64,000 nt of DNA from Methylacidiphilum caldifontis. GTDB lineage: Bacteria > Verrucomicrobiota > Verrucomicrobiia > Methylacidiphilales > Methylacidiphilaceae. The translations under genes were made by a program, and so were the position numbers. This document shows, one piece after another, positions 37,592-47,438 of this stretch (positions are counted from its first letter, which is position 1; each line of letters begins with the position of its first letter). The stretch lies in NCBI RefSeq assembly GCF_017310505.1, contig NZ_CP065957.1:744001-808000 (forward strand), read 5' to 3'. Below the pieces are notes generated by a model that had not been told where the DNA came from, searched no databases, and saw nothing but the letters and a program-made list of their open reading frames with translations.

Positions 37592-37732
37592 AGTATGGGG
37601 GTATTGAAAGTTAAAAGAGTCTAGCAGTAGGTCTTGAGCTGAGAAGATCCCTCGCAAAAAGCCTTTCCTTTTGAGTAATTGATTCTTTCCAAGAAGCCTT
37701 TTCCATTCTATTGTTGGAAAAGACAAGAGGGC

Positions 37733-38404
37733 ATGCGAATTTTAATTGTCGAAGACGAATTAAAGATCGCTCGGTTCATATCGCGGGCCCTGGAAGAAGA
37801 AGGTTTTGTTGTCGACAGTTGCAATCGTGGAGATGAAGCTTTGTTGCAACTATTAACTACTCCTTATGATGCCGCTGTCTTAGACATTATGCTTCCTGGT
37901 CCTGATGGACTTAGTATTCTGCGGTCTTTGAGAGACAGGGGGATTCATATTCCTATTCTTTTGTTAAGTGCAAGAGGAGAAACCCGAGACAAAATTGAAG
38001 GGCTAAATAGCGGTGCGGATGACTACCTTCCAAAACCCTTTTCAATGGATGAGCTGATAGCTAGACTCAGGGCGCTTATCCGAAGAACTGCAGGCATAGG
38101 CCTTTCTGTTTATAAGGTAGGCAACTTGACACTGAACCTTGTCACAAGAGAGGTTTATCGCGGTCAAAAAAAAATAGATCTCACAGTCAGGGAATTTTCA
38201 ATCCTTGAGTTACTGATGAGGACACCAGGAAGGGTTTTCACCCGGACCCAAATCTGTGAACATGTCTGGAACTATCACTTCGATCCAGGAACCAATCTTG
38301 TCGATGTGTATATCCAAAAGCTCCGTAAAAAGATCGATGAATGTGAAGAACAAAAATTGATACAAACTGTTAGAGGGGTAGGTTACAAGATTGAAGCTCC
38401 TTGA
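37733..38404 (+). CDS. OmpR/PhoB-type response regulator
   Basis: The ATG at 37733 (MRILIVEDELKIARFISRAL) is the right start, since it opens the first receiver strand; the frame runs further left. The receiver shows the acidic pair EDE, the phosphoacceptor in AAVLDIMLPGPDGL, the Ser in LLLSARGE and the Lys in YLPKPFS. The winged-helix domain shows TREVYRGQKKIDLTVREFSI, RTPGRVFTRTQICEHVWNYH and NLVDVYIQKLRKKID. It belongs to the CusR/CopR subgroup by appearance. The sensor kinase follows after 28 bases, and the pump cluster lies 2.3 kb downstream. Confidence 0.92.
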   Translation: MRILIVEDELKIARFISRALEEEGFVVDSCNRGDEALLQLLTTPYDAAVLDIMLPGPDGLSILRSLRDRGIHIPILLLSARGETRDKIEGLNSGADDYLPKPFSMDELIARLRALIRRTAGIGLSVYKVGNLTLNLVTREVYRGQKKIDLTVREFSILELLMRTPGRVFTRTQICEHVWNYHFDPGTNLVDVYIQKLRKKIDECEEQKLIQTVRGVGYKIEAP

Positions 38405-38432
38405 TAACAGGGGACTAAAAGAGTTTTTTTAA

Positions 38433-39836
38433 ATGAAAAACCTCCCTTTGCGTTGGAAAATAGCCTTTTGGACAGCATTTCTAGTTGCTGTTGCTCTGCT
38501 TTCTTCTGGAATGGTTACCGGAATTGTACTTTACAGAGAACTCGTAGAAAGCACAGATCGGGAATTAAAATCAGACTCTCTGGAATTTTTTAACCTCCTG
38601 GCAGAAAAACAAAACCGTTCTTTAAGTGCTTCAAAAAGTCTGTCCCAGGACTTTGAGAACTTTGAAGAAAGCTCGATCATGGAGTTCTCTACCGCTGAAA
38701 GCATCCCTCTTTACAAATCCCCTCTTCTTAAGGAAAAAGAGCTTTTTGCAGGCCACCCTACAGATAGTTTTTTCTACGAGAAACTTGATCGCGGTCTTTA
38801 CCGTATTTTTTATACCCAAAAAAACGGTTATCGGCTAGCCCTTGGGAAAAACATGGCTTCCCTTTATGAAATTCTTACCGAAGCTTCTCATGCTTATCTG
38901 CTTGCTTTCCCCTTCGCCCTGCTTCTTTCTACTTTGGGAGGATGGTGGATATCTCGAAAGGCTCTTTTGCCTATCCGCAATCTGACTTCAGCCCTCGAAC
39001 AGATCAGGGCTTCAGCTCTTCACCGCAGAATTTCTATTCCTGCTCAAGATCCAGATCTCAAAAGGCTTGTCAGTATTCTTAATGAAATGCTAGCTCGGCT
39101 TGAAGAGGCCTTTCAAAGAGAAATTCGATTAACTGCCGATGCTTCCCATGAACTCAAAACTCCACTGACTATTCTCAAAAACGAGCTTGAGACTGCTCTT
39201 CAGCGATCGGATACAGATCTTCAAACCGAAAAAACATTTCTCAACCTTTACGAACAGGTTCAAACCCTAAATTCCCTTACCCAGACCCTTCTTTTCCTTT
39301 CCAATCTTGATCGGGACAACGCCTTCCTCAAACCAGCACCAATAGCCATTTCGCAAGTTCTCAACGAGATTGTTGAAGATGTAGCCATTGTGGCTTCTTC
39401 CAAAGAAATAACCATTAAAAAAGAGCTGACAGAAGTGGGTTACCTGTATGCCGATGAGGATCTCCTCCGCAGGCTTTTATGGAACATTTTTGACAATGCG
39501 ATTCAACATAATATTTCTGGAGGCATTATAGAGGTAAAGCTAAAACCAAAACCCCCTGACAGCTGTCTTATCCAGGTGAGCAACAGTGGTCCTATCGTAG
39601 CTGAAGAAGAAAGGAAAAAAATTTTCGAAAGATTCTACCGTGGGAAAAACGCAACCGAAAAAGCCACTGCAGGCCATGGACTAGGTTTAAATCTCTGTAA
39701 AGAAATTGTCAGCGCTCACAAAGGAGAAATTAGCTATGATGTCGATGAAAGAGGACTCAACCAGCTTACAGTGGTATTTCCCCTTAGTGTAAATTCTTTT
39801 CTCAGCACAAAAAAAGCAAAGGACCTTCTTAGCTAA
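38433..39836 (+). CDS. Heavy-metal-type sensor histidine kinase
   Basis: It has two membrane helices (residues about 8-32 and 150-172) enclosing a periplasmic loop of about 115 residues, then HAMP, the H-box [20 protein letters not shown], the N-box [10 protein letters not shown] and G-boxes in [20 protein letters not shown]. The periplasmic part is Ser- and Lys-rich without obvious His/Met metal clusters. The overall layout fits CusS/CopS-like kinases. It pairs with the regulator just upstream. Its end overlaps gpmA, on the other strand, by eight bases. The signal is probably a metal ion, inferred from the nearby pump. Confidence 0.92.
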
Positions 39837-40575
39837 TCGCTTTACCTTGGGCGGCTACTTTGTACTGGGCTTGTTTTATTTCCTCAATGTCTCCTAGGTA
39901 ATAGGAAGAGAGCTTTTTACCCCGCTCATCAATGTCATAAACTAGGGGAAAGCCAGTGGGTATATTAAGCCCCACAATCTCTTCATCACTGATACCTTCA
40001 ATATATTTTATTAAAGCCCGGATACTGTTCCCATGGGCAGAAATCAATACCTTTTTACCAGAAAGGATCTCAGGGAAAATCTTTTCTTTCCAGTAAGGCA
40101 CGGTTCTTTGGAGGGTATCTTTTAAACTTTCAGCCGAAGGGATCTCTTCAGGAGACAAATCCCGGTAGCGTGGGTCAAAACGAGGATGAGAGGGATCGTT
40201 AATATCCAGTTTGGGGGGAGCAATATCGTAGCTTCTACGCCATAAAAGGACCTGCTTTTCTCCATACTTCTTGGCCATTTCCGACTTGTTTAATCCTTGA
40301 AGAGCCCCATAATGCCTTTCGTTAAGACGCCAACTTTTTTCCACCGGAATCCACATCAGGTCCATTTCATCTAGGACAATCCATAAGGTACGAATTGCCC
40401 GTTTCAATAAAGAACTAAAAGCGAGGTCAAATTCAAACCCCGCTTCTTTAAGAAGTTTAGCTGCATTTTCCGCCTCTTCCTTGCCACGACTCGAAAGGTC
40501 CACATCAGTCCAGCCAGTAAACCGGTTTTGCCTATTCCAAATACTTTCACCATGACGAAGGAAAACTACTCTCAT
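39829..40575 (-). CDS. gpmA: 2,3-bisphosphoglycerate-dependent phosphoglycerate mutase
   Basis: It interconverts 3- and 2-phosphoglycerate in glycolysis and gluconeogenesis. The phosphohistidine motif is [49 protein letters not shown] and the second His in [20 protein letters not shown] are all present. At 248 residues it is the typical size of dPGM. It sits between the sensor kinase and the pump genes in the opposite direction, so it separates the regulator pair from its likely targets. Confidence 0.96.
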
Positions 40576-40724: not shown

Positions 40725-42047
40725 ATGAAAACAGCGATTATTCTTGTTCAACTTTTCTTTTGTGCATTTTTGGGTTTTAGTCTTCAAAGATTAAACGGAG
40801 CAGAAAATAAAGAAGGTTTTTTAAAGGATCTTCTCAATCGAGGTCTATCCTCCAATCCTGACGTCCGCTACTTTTTCCTGGAGATCGAAGCAGCCAAAGG
40901 TCAGCAAATTCAAGCACGACTTTTTCCCTATCCCCAGTTTATTGGCTATATCGGGCCTTGGAGCAGTGGTGGATCAGCAACTACTCCTTCTGCATTCTCT
41001 CCTTATGGCTACCAATTCTATGAACTCTATCAACCCCTTCCTTTCCCTGGAAAGCTCAAATCCCGAAAAGAGATCGCCGCCTTGGATAGGGAGATAGCGG
41101 AGTTGATTTATAGGAGATACAAACTTTTTCTAGCATTCAAAATCTACTCCCTTGCCTACAGTATCGGTCTTAACGAGGAAAGTCTCCGGATAACTCAAGA
41201 AATTATTGAAAGGATAAATTTGCTTATCGACTTTTTGTCCAAAAGACCTAAGATCGGCATACAGGCTCTTGTTGAACTCAGAATATTAGAAGGTGGACGA
41301 GTCGGTTTCCTTCAGAACAAAAGGGATCTAGAGCAAAACCTTGCTTCTTTAAAATCCCAACTCAACGCTCTTCTCAACCTCTCCCCCTCAAATCCTATCC
41401 ATGCCCACATCCTTCCCTCCGGGCCATTGCCCAAACTAAGCTTAGAATATTTAAAGCAAACCGCCCTCGAAAACAACCCTACCCTGCTTATTCATGAGCG
41501 TTTAACCAGGCGGGCAGAAAAAGAACTCGAATTAACCAGACTGAATGCTTATCCCGATTTTACTGTTGGCCCCTTTTGGGAATACAACAAGGGGATCAAC
41601 ACTGATCAGGGTGGAGGGGTAACTTTTACAGTCGGTATTCCCTTTAGTGGTTCAAACGTTCCGGGACAGGCGGGGTTTGCATGGACGACAAACAAGGGAA
41701 ATATTATGAGTGCCCAAGCAAAACTTGACCAAAGTCGATCTCTTTACAAAGCGACCGTTCAATTCATCTATGGCTTGGTTGGATCTCGATTTGCCGTGTA
41801 CGAAAAAGCCAGGGATCAGCTTCTCAACCTTCCTTCTGAAAATATGTTGGAACATCTGTCAAGGGCTGCGGCGATGGCTGAAAGACAATACCGGTTAGGT
41901 GCGATCGATATTAACAGGTTTTTGGCGGTTCAAAGGCAATTTCTTGCTGTAACTTATGCCATCCGTGGAGCTCAAATCGATGCGATATCCACTTTTTATG
42001 AACTTCAAAACATAGCGGGAATCGATTCCAGCCAAACTTCATTATAA
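40725..42047 (+). CDS. TolC-family outer-membrane efflux protein (first of two)
   Basis: A signal segment (IILVQLFFCAFLGFSLQRL) leads into an outer-membrane-channel fold of about 420 residues. The repeats carry NRGLSSNPDVRYFFLEIEAA, a proline/glycine-rich LFPYPQFIGYIGPWSSGG, the helix-rich hairpin ENLASLKSQLNALLN-type region and a second copy ending AERQYRLGAIDINRFLAVQR. This is the CusC/CzcC kind. It leads the metal-efflux cluster and is 14 bases from the second copy. The periplasmic tunnel function is inferred from the family. Confidence 0.85.
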   Translation: MKTAIILVQLFFCAFLGFSLQRLNGAENKEGFLKDLLNRGLSSNPDVRYFFLEIEAAKGQQIQARLFPYPQFIGYIGPWSSGGSATTPSAFSPYGYQFYELYQPLPFPGKLKSRKEIAALDREIAELIYRRYKLFLAFKIYSLAYSIGLNEESLRITQEIIERINLLIDFLSKRPKIGIQALVELRILEGGRVGFLQNKRDLEQNLASLKSQLNALLNLSPSNPIHAHILPSGPLPKLSLEYLKQTALENNPTLLIHERLTRRAEKELELTRLNAYPDFTVGPFWEYNKGINTDQGGGVTFTVGIPFSGSNVPGQAGFAWTTNKGNIMSAQAKLDQSRSLYKATVQFIYGLVGSRFAVYEKARDQLLNLPSENMLEHLSRAAAMAERQYRLGAIDINRFLAVQRQFLAVTYAIRGAQIDAISTFYELQNIAGIDSSQTSL

Positions 42048-42061
42048 AAGAAAAGAAAGCT

Positions 42062-43369
42062 ATGAAAAAAACATCTATTCGAAGCTTATTCATATCTTCT
42101 TGTCGAAGGATATCTATCCTTTGGATAACTTTCTTTTTCAACTCCTCTTTCTTAATAGGCCAATCTGAAAATCTTCATTTTCCTTTGGCCATTCAAAAGC
42201 TGGTAGAAGAAGCCTACCAAAGGAATCCCGAAATTCTCTATTACCAGGCGGCAATAGAAGCGGCTAAAGGCCAATCCATACAGGCAAAGATCCTCCCCTA
42301 CCCAGAAATAGTAGGTTATGCGGGTCCATGGTTCAGTAGCCCCGGACAGGAAAATGGAGCTGGGGCAACAGGTTTTTACCAGGAATATGAAATTGTTCAA
42401 CCTTTTTTCTTTCCAGGCAAAATGAACATTCTTAAGGCTATTTCAGACAAAGATGGAGAACTGGCTAGACTTTGGCTAGACCAATTCAAGTTAAGCTTAA
42501 GAGCACAGGTCGTCAGCCTTGCTTACCAGCTTAGTGCAGCGGAGCTTAACGCCAAAGCTACAATGGAAGTACTCAATCAAAGCAAAGAGCTGATTGAATT
42601 TTTGGAAAAAAGACCCAAAATCGGTATTCAAGGTCTTCTTGATTTGAGAATCATCCAGGGGAGTCTTGTTGACTTTCAAAGGATGAATAGAGAGCAAGAA
42701 CAGCTTAAAAAATCGGTTCTTTCCCAGCTCAATGCTATTCTTGGATATCCCCCTGATCATCCTCTATCTCAAAATATCCTTGCTCCTGAGCAATGGCCTG
42801 CTGTCCCTAGTCTTGAAACACTTTTGGAATCAGCTAGCAAGCATAACCTTTTCATCCAGATGAGAAGGATAGAAATTGAAAAAGCGGCAAAAGTTATCGA
42901 TGCCGCTAAATTTGTGAATATCCCCGACTTTGGACTGGGTCCTTATTTTGTCCAGGAAAAAGGAACCAACAACAACATAGGACCGGGAGTAATTTTCACA
43001 AGTGGGCTTCCTCTCTGGAACCAGAATCGTGGAAATATTATCAGTTCAGAAGCAAGAAAAGATCAAGCGGTTTCCATGTTTGCTTCCACGTGGAGATCGA
43101 TCCAGAGTTCAATCAACACCAGGCTTGAAGTTTACAGGCAAGCAACCGATCTTTTATCCAAAGTTCCCCCCTCTCTTCTTGATCGTCTCCGCTCGGCTGC
43201 ATACTTGGCTGAAAGACAATACCGATTAGGAGCTATCCCTGTTCAAACCTTTCTTGAAATGCAAAGACAATATGTTTCCAGCGCAATCACTTTAAGAACT
43301 GCTCAGATCGATGCCGCTACGGCTCTCTATGATCTTCAAACGCTGACCGGTGGAGGTTGGTCAAAATAA
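42062..43369 (+). CDS. TolC-family outer-membrane efflux protein (second of two)
   Basis: A paralogue of the preceding gene: both share the pattern ILPYPEIVGYAGPWFSSPG, EFLEKRPKIGIQGLLDLRII, LKKSVLSQLNAILGYPPDHP and LAERQYRLGAIPVQTFLEMQ. Its signal segment is ISILWITFFFNSSFLIGQ. Having two different channels in tandem is unusual for an RND operon, which needs only one. They may form a mixed trimer, or one may serve another pump. The next gene starts at or within its last bases. Confidence 0.85.
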   Translation: MKKTSIRSLFISSCRRISILWITFFFNSSFLIGQSENLHFPLAIQKLVEEAYQRNPEILYYQAAIEAAKGQSIQAKILPYPEIVGYAGPWFSSPGQENGAGATGFYQEYEIVQPFFFPGKMNILKAISDKDGELARLWLDQFKLSLRAQVVSLAYQLSAAELNAKATMEVLNQSKELIEFLEKRPKIGIQGLLDLRIIQGSLVDFQRMNREQEQLKKSVLSQLNAILGYPPDHPLSQNILAPEQWPAVPSLETLLESASKHNLFIQMRRIEIEKAAKVIDAAKFVNIPDFGLGPYFVQEKGTNNNIGPGVIFTSGLPLWNQNRGNIISSEARKDQAVSMFASTWRSIQSSINTRLEVYRQATDLLSKVPPSLLDRLRSAAYLAERQYRLGAIPVQTFLEMQRQYVSSAITLRTAQIDAATALYDLQTLTGGGWSK

Positions 43370-44244
43370 AAAGCATTAAGTTGGCTATGTTCCTTTTTTT
43401 ATTATTTTGGTTCTTTTTGATGAAATTTTATGATAATTCGGTTGTGCCGACTTTCCTCCTTTTTCTATTTGTTGGCTTTGCCTCTTTAAACCATCTTCTC
43501 CTTTATGGTCAAACTAGCGAGGTGCCCTCCCCTCAGGTGGTTTTCGAAGAGCCGCTTGCTGGACTTGATCCTTCTTCGCCTCCCCGATTCATCCCCGGCT
43601 CAGGTCTATTTCTAGGGGCTATTACTGAAAAGGAAATGGGAATCCAAACCACAGCTGCAGTTGAAAAAGAGATCGCTCCTCTCTATTTGGGCGAAAGCCA
43701 GGTTTACAGGTCATCCTGGGAAAAATCCTCCCGATATAATGGTCAGGAAGAAGGATTTGCTTATTCAACATCTTTTATTGACGGTAAAGACAGCGAAAAA
43801 CTCAATGTTGGCCAGCGAGTACATGTTAAGGTCAAAAGAGCTGGTTCTGAGACCCTCAGCTATGAAGGCAAAATTTTTTACATAGACAAAGAGCTTATTC
43901 CGATTATTGGCAAAGCCGAAATCATTCTACAGATTTCCGACCCCTCACACACTTTACAGGTTGGAGATTGGATCAATTTTGAAACATCACTGGGGTTGGT
44001 TGCCAGCTGGCTCACAATACCTGAATCGGCCATCCTCGACACGGCCAGTGGCTGTTTTTGCTATGTTTTCTTGGGAAAGGGCCATTATCAAAGAAAACCG
44101 ATTGAAGTGGCTTTCGTTAGCCAGGGATTGGGGGCCATAAGAAAAGGGCTTGAAAAAGGCGCCGAGGTAGTAACCCAGGGAGCAAAGCAACTGTGGCTTC
44201 TTGAACTTTCCCTTTCACAATCTGGCGGCCCATCGACCTATTAA
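43357..44244 (+). CDS. Truncated-looking RND periplasmic adaptor (membrane fusion protein)
   Basis: The start is uncertain: TTG at 43357, or ATGs at 43387 and 43420; only the last gives a simple signal peptide (TFLLFLFVGFASLNHLLLYG). The mature part has an IQTTAAVEKEIAPL strand and DSEKLNVGQRVHVKVKRAG, which look like CusB beta-barrel. HTLQVGDWINFETSLG follows, then a membrane-proximal part IPESAILDTASGCFCYVFLG with GLEKGAEVVTQGAK at the end. About 100 residues are missing compared with CusB (about 400), chiefly the lipoyl and alpha-hairpin parts. It sits directly before the RND pump gene, 5 bases away. Confidence 0.7.
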   Translation: MVKIKSIKLAMFLFLLFWFFLMKFYDNSVVPTFLLFLFVGFASLNHLLLYGQTSEVPSPQVVFEEPLAGLDPSSPPRFIPGSGLFLGAITEKEMGIQTTAAVEKEIAPLYLGESQVYRSSWEKSSRYNGQEEGFAYSTSFIDGKDSEKLNVGQRVHVKVKRAGSETLSYEGKIFYIDKELIPIIGKAEIILQISDPSHTLQVGDWINFETSLGLVASWLTIPESAILDTASGCFCYVFLGKGHYQRKPIEVAFVSQGLGAIRKGLEKGAEVVTQGAKQLWLLELSLSQSGGPSTY

Positions 44245-44249
44245 AAAAT

Positions 44250-47200
44250 ATGATCAATAAAATTGTTTTTTTATCGATCGAAAGAAAAGAGGTGGTTTTA
44301 GGGTTGGCGATCGTCCTTTTTATCCTAGGGCTGTTGTCTTTCTTTCATCTGCCTGTGGATGCTGTTCCCGATCTTTCTAACGTTCAAGTCCAAATCAACA
44401 CCTATGTGCCTGCCTATGCTCCCGAAGAGGTAGAAAAGCTCATCACCTTTCCTATAGAAATTGAAATGGGAGGCATACCTGGATTGGAAACGATCCGTTC
44501 TTTAAGTAAATTTGGTCTTTCCCAGGTCACCTTAATCTTCAAGGATGGAACAAATCTCTACCGAAGTAGACAGCTTGTGGGAGAAAGACTTCTTACAGCT
44601 AGCGCCAAGATTCCTCCAAACATCACTCCTACCATGGCCCCGATAACTACGGGACTCGGTGAAATTTTCCATTATATCCTCAAATATAGAGATGGAACCC
44701 AAGAAAAGCCTTCTTCTGAACTTCTTCAACTCATCGAGCTTCGTCTTTTACAAGAATACACGATAAGACCTATGCTCAGAAGAGTGCCTGGAGTAGCCGA
44801 TGTCAATACGAGTGGGGGTTATCAAAAACTGATCCTCGTAGAACCCGATCCCAATAGGCTTACCAATGTCGGTATAACCATTGGAGAGCTGGGGCATATC
44901 GTTGGTCAAAATACTGAAATTGCTGGAGGAGGAGTAATCGATAAAGCAGGTGAACAGCTTACGGTGAGATCTCTGGGCAGAGTCAATACTCTTGAAGAAA
45001 TTGCTTTAATTCCCATTAAATATGCTGGAGGGTCACAACCGGTGCTGGTTAAGGACGTCGCCAAGGTAGATGTGGGAGGAAACATTCGGGTAGGTGCTGC
45101 AACATACAACGGTTCTGAAACTGTTCTGGGTACAGTCATGATGCTTGTTGGAGAGAACAGCCGAGCTGTTTCCCAGCGCGTAGCCAAAGAGCTTGAACTC
45201 ATTCAACAAAGAATTCCATCGGCCTTCGAAATCATCCCTGTTTACAATCGAGCTGACGTGGTAAACGCCACCATTAAAACAGTTACCCATAACTTATTGG
45301 AAGGAGCCCTGCTTGTCATCGCCATCATATTTGTACTCTTGGGGAACTGGAGAAGTTCTCTACTTATCGCTTCGGTGATCCCCATGGCTTTTCTCTTTGC
45401 TATAATTATCATGTTCTGGCTAGGGCTGTCGGGAAATCTGATGAGCTTAGGAGCGATCGATTTTGGTTTAATCGTTGACGGAGCCGTTGTCGTCATAGAA
45501 AATGCCCTTCGCAGACTGTCCCTCAAAGAGGCTCTTCTTTCAAGGCCTTTAAGTCTTGAAGAAAAAAAGAAGGAGTTATACGACTCTACCTTGCAGGTTA
45601 TCAACTCGGTTTTCTTTGGTATCCTCATTATTACAGTGGTCTATATTCCAATACTGACCCTTTCGGGAATCGAAGGTAAAACCTTTAGTCCCATGGCCAT
45701 CACCGTGATGCTTGTCCTTTCGGGCTCTTTACTCCTTAGCCTTACCTATGTTCCTGCTGCTGCCGTCAATGTTCTTAAAGCACCTAGAGAATTGAAAGAA
45801 TCTTTTGTCGTTCATTGCTTAAAAAAAGTATACCTGAAGGTTCTCAAGTGGACCCTGGGTTATGGCCGATGGATAGTTTTACCCGCTGCTTTATTGTTGA
45901 TTGTGGCTTCACTTTGGGCTTTTAAACGGCTTGGATCAGAGTTTATTCCTAGGCTTGACGAAGGTTCCGTTGCTGCGATGATTTACAGAGCATGGTCAAC
46001 TGACCTACCTTCTTCTGTAGCGATGGAAGAGAAAACCGAAAAGGTTCTCTTGGAAAATTTTCCTGAAATCAACTGCATTTTCTCTCGTGTTGGCACCTCT
46101 GAAATTGCAACCGATCCGATGCCTCCCAATGAAAACGACATCTATTTGATGCTGAAACCAAAGGAAACATGGAGAAAAGATAAGGGCAAACCCATTTCAA
46201 AAGAGAAGCTGGTGGATTTGATTTCCAAAGAAATAGCTTACAGGGTACCCGGACAAAAGGTCCTTTTTTCGCAACCCATTGAAACGCGGTTTAACGAAAT
46301 GCTCGAAGGGGTACGAACAGACCTTTCAATCAAGTGGTTCGGAGAAGACTACGATATTCTCACTTCTCTGGCAAAACAAACTGAAGCCATTGTAAAAGGC
46401 ATAGCGGGCACCCTTGAAACACAAATCCAGGCCGAAGGAGATGCTCCTTCCCTTGAATTTGTCCCTGACCGCCAGAAAATGATCCAATTTAATATTGAAG
46501 CTAGCGAAGTCAATTCGGCCATTTTTTCATCCATGGCGGGTAATCCTGTAGGCCTTATGATTGATGGAGAAAAGCGCTATCCCATCACCATCAGGCTTCC
46601 CGAACAATTCCGAGAAAATCCAGATGTAATCCTCAACTTGCCTATAAAATCCATCATGGGGGGCTTAATGCCTCTTTCCTCTATTTGCCAGTATCACATC
46701 TATAAGCGGCCTCGAGCTATTTTCAGAGAAAATGGTACCCGTTACCGTGCCGTCATGGTGAGCTTTAACAGGAAAGATATTGAAGGCTACGTAAACGAAA
46801 TCCGACAAAAAGTTGAAAAACAAATTCATTCACCCAAGGGGTATTACGTCGAATATACGGGTCAGTATCAGAACTTGGTTAAAGCTAGAAACCGGCTTTT
46901 ATTTATCGTTCCCAGCTGTCTTTTCTTGATTTTTCTATTGACTTATATTGCCCTGAAGAATCTAGGGCAAAGCCTATTAGTGATTAGTAGTGTTCCTTTT
47001 GCCGCCACTGGAGGGATATTGTCTCTTTTTTTGTTACGCATGCCTTTTAGCATATCTGCAGCGATCGGTTTGATAGCGCTATCGGGTATATCGGTGCTCG
47101 CCTCCCTTATTCTTGTCAGTTTTATTAATCATCTGGTGCAGGAAGGTTATAGTCTGCGGGAGGCTATCGAAAGAGGATGTGATTTGAGATTTAGGCCTAT

Positions 47201-47438
47201 ACTGACCACAGCTTCCGTTGCAAGCCTTGGTTTTATTCCCATGGCTTTGTCTCAAGGAGCAGGTGCTGAAGTTCAAAGGCCACTTGCGATTGTCGTTATC
47301 GGAGGTATTGGAACTTCAACTTTTCTGACTTTGCTTCTACTGCCACTCCTTTACTTCTACCTGGAGCAGAGAAAGGAGAAAAAAAGAAAAGAAACTTACA
47401 CGGTAATGAAAGAACGAGAATTTCTGAAAAGAAAATAA
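44250..47438 (+). CDS. Heavy-metal RND efflux pump (CusA/CzcA type)
   Basis: The pump protein is 1062 residues long with the standard two-half topology. N-terminal motifs are VDAVPDLSNVQVQINTYVPA and the porter TTGLGEIFHYIL; the proton-relay segment is LGAIDFGLIVDGAVVVIENA. The second half shows FIPRLDEGSVAAM and GTSEIATDPMPPNENDIYLM. The proton-relay acidic residues are all present. Loop Met residues are plentiful (NEMLEGVRTDL, SSMAGNPVGLM), but the Cus-type Met triad cannot be assigned without alignment. The exported metal (Cu, Ag, Zn, Co, Cd or Ni) is uncertain. It ends a four-gene operon. Confidence 0.95.
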   Translation: MINKIVFLSIERKEVVLGLAIVLFILGLLSFFHLPVDAVPDLSNVQVQINTYVPAYAPEEVEKLITFPIEIEMGGIPGLETIRSLSKFGLSQVTLIFKDGTNLYRSRQLVGERLLTASAKIPPNITPTMAPITTGLGEIFHYILKYRDGTQEKPSSELLQLIELRLLQEYTIRPMLRRVPGVADVNTSGGYQKLILVEPDPNRLTNVGITIGELGHIVGQNTEIAGGGVIDKAGEQLTVRSLGRVNTLEEIALIPIKYAGGSQPVLVKDVAKVDVGGNIRVGAATYNGSETVLGTVMMLVGENSRAVSQRVAKELELIQQRIPSAFEIIPVYNRADVVNATIKTVTHNLLEGALLVIAIIFVLLGNWRSSLLIASVIPMAFLFAIIIMFWLGLSGNLMSLGAIDFGLIVDGAVVVIENALRRLSLKEALLSRPLSLEEKKKELYDSTLQVINSVFFGILIITVVYIPILTLSGIEGKTFSPMAITVMLVLSGSLLLSLTYVPAAAVNVLKAPRELKESFVVHCLKKVYLKVLKWTLGYGRWIVLPAALLLIVASLWAFKRLGSEFIPRLDEGSVAAMIYRAWSTDLPSSVAMEEKTEKVLLENFPEINCIFSRVGTSEIATDPMPPNENDIYLMLKPKETWRKDKGKPISKEKLVDLISKEIAYRVPGQKVLFSQPIETRFNEMLEGVRTDLSIKWFGEDYDILTSLAKQTEAIVKGIAGTLETQIQAEGDAPSLEFVPDRQKMIQFNIEASEVNSAIFSSMAGNPVGLMIDGEKRYPITIRLPEQFRENPDVILNLPIKSIMGGLMPLSSICQYHIYKRPRAIFRENGTRYRAVMVSFNRKDIEGYVNEIRQKVEKQIHSPKGYYVEYTGQYQNLVKARNRLLFIVPSCLFLIFLLTYIALKNLGQSLLVISSVPFAATGGILSLFLLRMPFSISAAIGLIALSGISVLASLILVSFINHLVQEGYSLREAIERGCDLRFRPILTTASVASLGFIPMALSQGAGAEVQRPLAIVVIGGIGTSTFLTLLLLPLLYFYLEQRKEKKRKETYTVMKEREFLKRK

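Follow-up and report, generated by a model that had tools for sequence, protein, structure and literature searches.

Our results indicate that an adaptor predicted to consist of a membrane-proximal domain and a β-barrel only, with neither the α-helical hairpin nor the lipoyl domain that normally extend toward the outer-membrane channel, is encoded between TolC channels and a metal RND pump in the window, i.e., the whole 64,000-bp stretch analyzed here (positions 744001 to 808000 of a single 2,254,698-bp contig). Sequence comparison further indicates that the TolC-short adaptor-RND cassette is conserved across PVC bacteria. How adaptors join pump and channel has been debated for years between tip-to-tip contact and deep interpenetration, with BesA as the one structural exception. 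A conserved adaptor of this kind beside a TolC channel of normal length and a normal RND pump raises the possibility of direct TolC docking or of export without a sealed duct, and its widespread conservation in a superphylum provides a natural test of how pump and channel are connected. The reading we prefer, with a probability of roughly 0.55, is that the locus encodes a CzcA/ZneA-like RND system for the efflux of heavy metals, probably divalent cations, in which the reduced adaptor would form an activating or hand-off ring bound to the pump and TolC would meet the pump directly.

Organization of the efflux locus

Open reading frames and family profiles identified two channel genes, the short adaptor gene, and an HME-RND pump gene as consecutive genes at positions 40725 to 47438 (Table 1). 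The two channel genes are 14 bp apart, the second channel gene and the adaptor gene overlap or are separated by about 17 bp, and 5 bp lie between the adaptor and pump genes; this spacing makes a single operon likely. Scans for promoters and terminators gave signals at chance level only. A preliminary description of this region had named two TolC channels, an adaptor about 100 residues short, and a metal RND pump, all of which are borne out by the open reading frames, the profiles, and AlphaFold2 (AF2) modeling.

A response regulator and sensor kinase pair (37679 to 39836) precedes the cluster in the window and in its four congeners. The OmpR-type regulator is probably the regulator of the efflux cluster, and the kinase upstream of the cluster is conserved only in the genus of the window (g1). 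A phosphoglycerate mutase-like gene on the opposite strand (39829 to 40575) separates the two-component system from the efflux operon.

Table 1. Features of the efflux locus and of related loci (window positions, or locus:positions for relatives)
Feature	Position	Strand	Basis or remark
OmpR-type response regulator	37679..38404	+	PF00072 and PF00486; same upstream place in four congeners
Sensor histidine kinase, partner of the response regulator	38433..39836	+	HATPase_c, HisKA, HAMP
TolC1, outer-membrane channel paralogue, 440 aa	40725..42047	+	PF02321, 91.9 bits
TolC2, outer-membrane channel, 435 aa	42062..43369	+	PF02321, 101 bits
Short periplasmic adaptor, 285 aa from ATG	43387..44244	+	AF2 model, fold matches, family alignments
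Adaptor β-barrel domain, model residues 97-203	43675..43995	+	aligns to MacA, EmrA, and MexA barrels
15-residue loop replacing lipoyl domain and hairpin, model residues 109-123	43711..43755	+	DSSP; alignment with lipoyl-bearing adaptors
Adaptor membrane-proximal domain, main part, residues 206-278	44002..44220	+	AF2 model
HME-RND pump, CzcA/CusA family, 1062 aa	44250..47438	+	TIGR00914, 1121 bits; ZneA, 584 bits; CusA, 533 bits
CxxCxRAEYACxC-type protein, examples	L083:10024-10500, L088:9887-10396, L105:9753-10241		alignment A6
First pre-TolC small-protein family	L083:4233-4721, L095:4262-4771
Second pre-TolC small-protein family	L107:4017-4493, L122:4074-4580

The short adaptor and its relatives

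The annotated adaptor frame of 295 aa runs from a TTG at 43357, within the end of the TolC2 gene, to 44244. The ATG at 43387 is the likelier start, because the congener G002 has a stop codon within the extended frame. The protein matches TIGR01730 (RND_mfp) only at positions 178 to 313 of 322, confined to the part that follows the lipoyl domain and hairpin, with 53 bits against a cut-off of 94.9; it also remains below the cut-off of the CzcB family TIGR00999 (41.7 bits, cut-off 319.3), and no Pfam family reaches its cut-off with the window adaptor. Even at an E value of 0.01, any Pfam family was matched by only 2 of 42 adaptor relatives. Among solved structures, a profile built from these 42 relatives finds CusB, ZneB, MacA, AcrA, and BesA, always through the C-terminal half.

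We modeled the adaptor with AF2 on the alignment of its relatives and assigned secondary structure with DSSP. The mean pLDDT is 86.8, with values above 90 across most of residues 61 to 278. The membrane-proximal domain begins with strands at about residues 67 to 97 and is completed by residues 206 to 264 and a C-terminal helix (266 to 278); it matches the NMR structure of the membrane-proximal domain of SilB (5a4g; Z 8.8, 78 residues), and the barrel matches those of MacA, EmrA, and MexA (Z of about 10 over 89 to 94 residues). In the model, the strand at residues 99 to 108 leads into the loop and then into the strand at 124 to 132, so that no helix, and hence no α-helical hairpin, is found between the barrel strands, and model and alignment both place the loop where the lipoyl domain would be. 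This agrees with the preliminary description, which had noted the missing hairpin and lipoyl part and had named a hairpin recovered by modeling as the result that would speak against it. In an alignment with adaptors of this phylum that carry a lipoyl domain, the short adaptor lacks that domain as one block. In several relatives, a profile of complete adaptors aligns at about positions 68 to 101 and then at 258 to 392 of 416, and a dozen to a few dozen residues (fewest in L117) replace about 155 positions of the profile. The best fold matches of the whole model are CusB (Z 14.9, 196 residues), ZneB (Z 14.7, 193 residues), and BesA (Z 13.5, 181 residues). Upf1 and ATPase subunits, which also appear in the fold lists, were discarded as weak chance matches to a common small β-barrel.

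The adaptor shares the absence of a hairpin with BesA, the RND adaptor of Borrelia burgdorferi (PDB 4KKS-4KKU; PMC3807786). BesA retains its lipoyl domain, and nine residues form a loop where the hairpin would be, whereas the window adaptor has lost its lipoyl domain too; BesABC is a multidrug pump, whereas the system in the window is a predicted metal pump. Reviews, in the portions available to us, term BesA aberrant or non-typical, and those portions name no adaptor without a lipoyl domain (PMC8277102, PMC4446572, PMC13328181). A hairpin-less adaptor is thus already known, and the loss of the lipoyl domain in addition is new here. EmrA, an MFS adaptor, has likewise lost one standard domain, but according to the available part of one review (PMC13328181) this is the membrane-proximal domain, at the opposite end from the loss in the window adaptor, and EmrA has a very long hairpin. 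CusB (CusCBA) and ZneB (ZneCAB/CzcCBA) serve pumps of the same HME-RND family as that of the window; these adaptors have both the lipoyl and hairpin domains, and each system has one channel gene, whereas the short adaptor has neither domain and is encoded beside two channels.

Intermediate and more extreme forms were found. Eleven sister cassettes in Verrucomicrobiota (L169 to L179) encode adaptors of about 380 to 430 aa; the one that was searched, from L169, has BesA as its best solved match by E value, through the lipoyl halves and with no room for a hairpin. The lipoyl halves lie 24 residues apart in 8 of the 11 adaptors and were not located by motif in the other three, and the group has a conserved ESRQPGDPPP linker and a C-terminal hydrophobic extension. 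These cassettes have the same gene order as the short-adaptor relatives (TolC, adaptor, HME RND, and a His/Cys protein), although they retain the lipoyl domain without a hairpin and their pumps and channels are distant from those of the short-adaptor cassettes. At the other extreme, a 137-aa adaptor that, from its sequence, looks like a membrane-proximal domain only lies between a TolC gene and an RND gene of the short-adaptor lineage in one MAG (L180:6742-7155); a second adaptor of this type was not found in the order of L180. The BesA-like, short, and 137-aa adaptors form a reduction series, and such a graded series within one phylum offers matched material on the role of each domain.

Clear homologs of the short adaptor are found throughout the order Methylacidiphilales (60 relatives), next to genes for TolC and for an RND pump belonging to the same lineage. 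When 84,980 species genomes were scanned with a pair of short motifs, 44 named loci were recovered, all titled Verrucomicrobiota, Kiritimatiellia, Lentisphaerae, or Omnitrophota; the scan was led by motifs, so that absence elsewhere is weak evidence. TolC and RND genes flank the short adaptor in all of the 44 loci where the contig is long enough, the same architecture occurs in many further genomes, and other families of Verrucomicrobiota have even shorter versions (230 to 246 aa). Within the genus, dN is 0.07 to 0.23 with saturated dS for both channels, the adaptor, and the pump, from which all four genes appear to be under purifying selection. We considered whether the adaptor gene is undergoing decay or was misassembled, as it is short and falls below every curated family cut-off. 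We regard this as highly improbable, given that the 44 named loci and many further genomes are alike, that the adaptor has a dN/dS of about 0.1 or lower within the genus (with dS saturated), and that its model is compact and confident. A gene fragment, a frameshift, or chance is ruled out by the conservation in the named loci together with a dN far below dS. Nor does a separate small gene supply the missing parts: where genes intervene between adaptor and pump in some relatives, they encode a P-type ATPase, a lipoprotein-like protein, or nothing clear, and the conserved protein downstream of the pump has no match to adaptor families. In relatives, the TolC gene is immediately preceded by genes for small proteins of two different families (Table 1).

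Channels, pump, and putative metal-binding features

Both channels exceed the PF02321 cut-off, with two OEP stretches each, and are 39% identical to each other. In a maximum-likelihood tree, TolC1 clusters with the first of the two channels of sister genus g3 (support 92/96), which places the duplication before the split of g1 and g3, and TolC2 lies nearer to the channel of those cassettes that have only one. Sequence relationships thus point to one tandem duplication in the ancestor of g1 and g3 as the origin of the twin channels. Genus g2 and the other families of the order have one channel before the adaptor, as do most PVC relatives, which makes the one-channel cassette with a short adaptor the usual arrangement. 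The channel duplication is therefore later than, and independent of, the reduction of the adaptor, and the idea that having two channels caused this reduction was rejected on the same grounds. Comparison with verrucomicrobial relatives, which the preliminary description had proposed, confirmed the short adaptor as widespread, whereas the twin channels trace back to the base of g1 and g3, and most relatives have one channel. Seven loci of the Chthoniobacterales type (L092 to L098) have a second, shorter TolC-like gene after the RND gene (mostly 371 to 387 aa), a channel gain independent of that in the window.

The AF2 model of TolC2 (pLDDT 89) has a complete TolC fold and matches Klebsiella TolC (Z 28.6 over 385 residues) and CusC (Z 25.4). 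A longer channel that bridges the gap is rejected, as the model has ordinary TolC length; there is thus no visible compensation for the missing hairpin. The conserved channel turn motif QYRxG is retained. At the helix turns, where we take D153, Y362, and R367 to be the relevant positions of TolC, sequence alignment indicates that both the acid at D153 and the Tyr at Y362 are retained and that R367 is not. BesC, which is said to be without primary gates in the available part of one review (PMC4446572), differs in this respect from the channels described here.

The pump passes the cut-off of TIGR00914 (CusA/CzcA; 1121.5 bits, cut-off 701), and its nearest solved homolog is ZneA, followed by CusA (Table 1). 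Thirty pumps of the lineage, drawn from cassettes and from stand-alone paralogues, fall into a single clade (support 100), separate from those HME pumps of the order that have complete adaptors. In alignments, the window pump has Glu at the positions of CusA M623 and M672, which we take to be two of the three methionines of the triad, and acids at the positions of ZneA E136 and D658, whose roles we likewise assume. These residues are more consistent with divalent metals than with Cu(I)/Ag(I), and the substrate is probably a heavy metal in the form of a divalent cation. In relatives, several cassettes contain or adjoin P-type metal ATPase genes, and others have CDF exporter genes in their vicinity.

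Outside the window, at 1038057 to 1041278 (L128:5055-8279), the same genome (G000) encodes a second member of this pump lineage that shares 49% identity with the window pump and has no TolC or adaptor gene nearby. This stand-alone pump is kept in all congeners and in g2 and g3; in g3, it adjoins, by eye, genes resembling an NRAMP-type Mn transporter and a DtxR/MntR-like regulator. Two RND pump genes lie in tandem behind the twin TolC genes and one short adaptor gene in genus g3 (L063, L064, L065, L068, and L069).

Most adaptor relatives have a His-rich N terminus and a GGGHxH C-terminal end. A DHxGCDVxG motif with nearby His residues lies in the loop that replaces the lipoyl domain and hairpin in 15 of 42 relatives (A3 rows L100 to L124) and is likely a metal site. 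Directly after the RND gene, 32 of 44 loci encode a secreted protein (about 150 aa) that has a His-rich N terminus and a CxxCxRAEYACxC-type motif; the same protein follows the RND gene in the BesA-like sister cassettes. Neither Pfam nor NCBIfam contains a match to this protein, and the PDB has no credible one; it is possibly a metallochaperone. Together, the His/Cys features of the adaptors and this downstream protein point to metal capture and hand-off. The family of the window has neither the His-rich adaptor parts nor the downstream protein, apparently through loss, and the case for a metal hand-off role is weakest exactly there.

Connection between pump and channel

In the reading that we prefer, the short adaptor would bind the porter domain of the pump through its two retained domains, as CusB and ZneB do, and would serve as an activating or metal hand-off ring on the pump rather than as the wall of a duct. 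The TolC channel, with a periplasmic barrel of predicted normal length, would then meet the docking domain of the pump directly or transiently, without hairpin contacts; such contact would be feasible only if the periplasm were narrower or the docking flexible. The preliminary description had proposed that one of the two channels docks in another way. Docking without hairpins stands, as the adaptor model contains no hairpin, but the tie to twin channels does not, since single-channel cassettes are alike in this respect: with the reduced adaptor beside a single channel in most relatives, hairpin-free docking must hold for every such channel. A broader view, which we hold only tentatively, is that PVC adaptors were whittled down stepwise, losing the hairpin, the lipoyl domain, and perhaps the barrel, until the adaptor left the duct and became a pump-bound metal-sensing or hand-off subunit, with TolC docking straight on the pump. 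If so, tripartite efflux would require neither the hairpin nor the lipoyl domain.

Direct docking has to be weighed against the view that the pump releases metal into the periplasm with no trans-envelope duct, TolC exporting independently. In line with this view, we found no component that could span the distance from pump to channel, the TolC helices are of ordinary length, and the lineage also includes an HME pump that stands alone, with neither a channel nor an adaptor gene close by. However, wherever the contig extends far enough, each cassette has a TolC gene directly next to the adaptor gene, an arrangement that suggests physical association of the products, and the QYRxG turn motif of the channel has been kept; we therefore consider export without a duct unlikely.

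We also doubt that the pump borrows a complete adaptor, such as a CusB-like one, or forms a mixed ring in the manner of TriA/TriB with the short adaptor as the hairpin-less partner. Every genome checked encodes complete adaptors, so that one from another locus could join; in the genome of the window these include a 464-aa CusB-like adaptor beside a CusA-like pump. Nevertheless, the unit that is inherited, the cassette itself, does not include a complete adaptor, and in nearly all loci none lies beside it (within about 6 kb in most). The exceptions are L042 and L046, which are neighboring independent metal-pump loci, and one HlyD-like gene in L078 and L091, both from the same genome. The preliminary description had held that a complete adaptor serving this pump would count against it: there is none near the cluster, but the CusB-like one exists elsewhere, beside its own CusA-like pump. 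In the congener G004, a CusA-like pump beside a complete adaptor is split in two frames (836 and 233 aa; L049:6391-9599).

The duplicate channels probably share one adaptor and may serve different pumps, i.e., the window pump and the stand-alone pump. Pumps of this lineage are more numerous in the genome than short adaptors, and sharing of one short adaptor by several pumps is plausible. An arrangement of one channel per pump, with TolC1 for the stand-alone pump, is unsupported, as g2 has the stand-alone pump together with a single channel.
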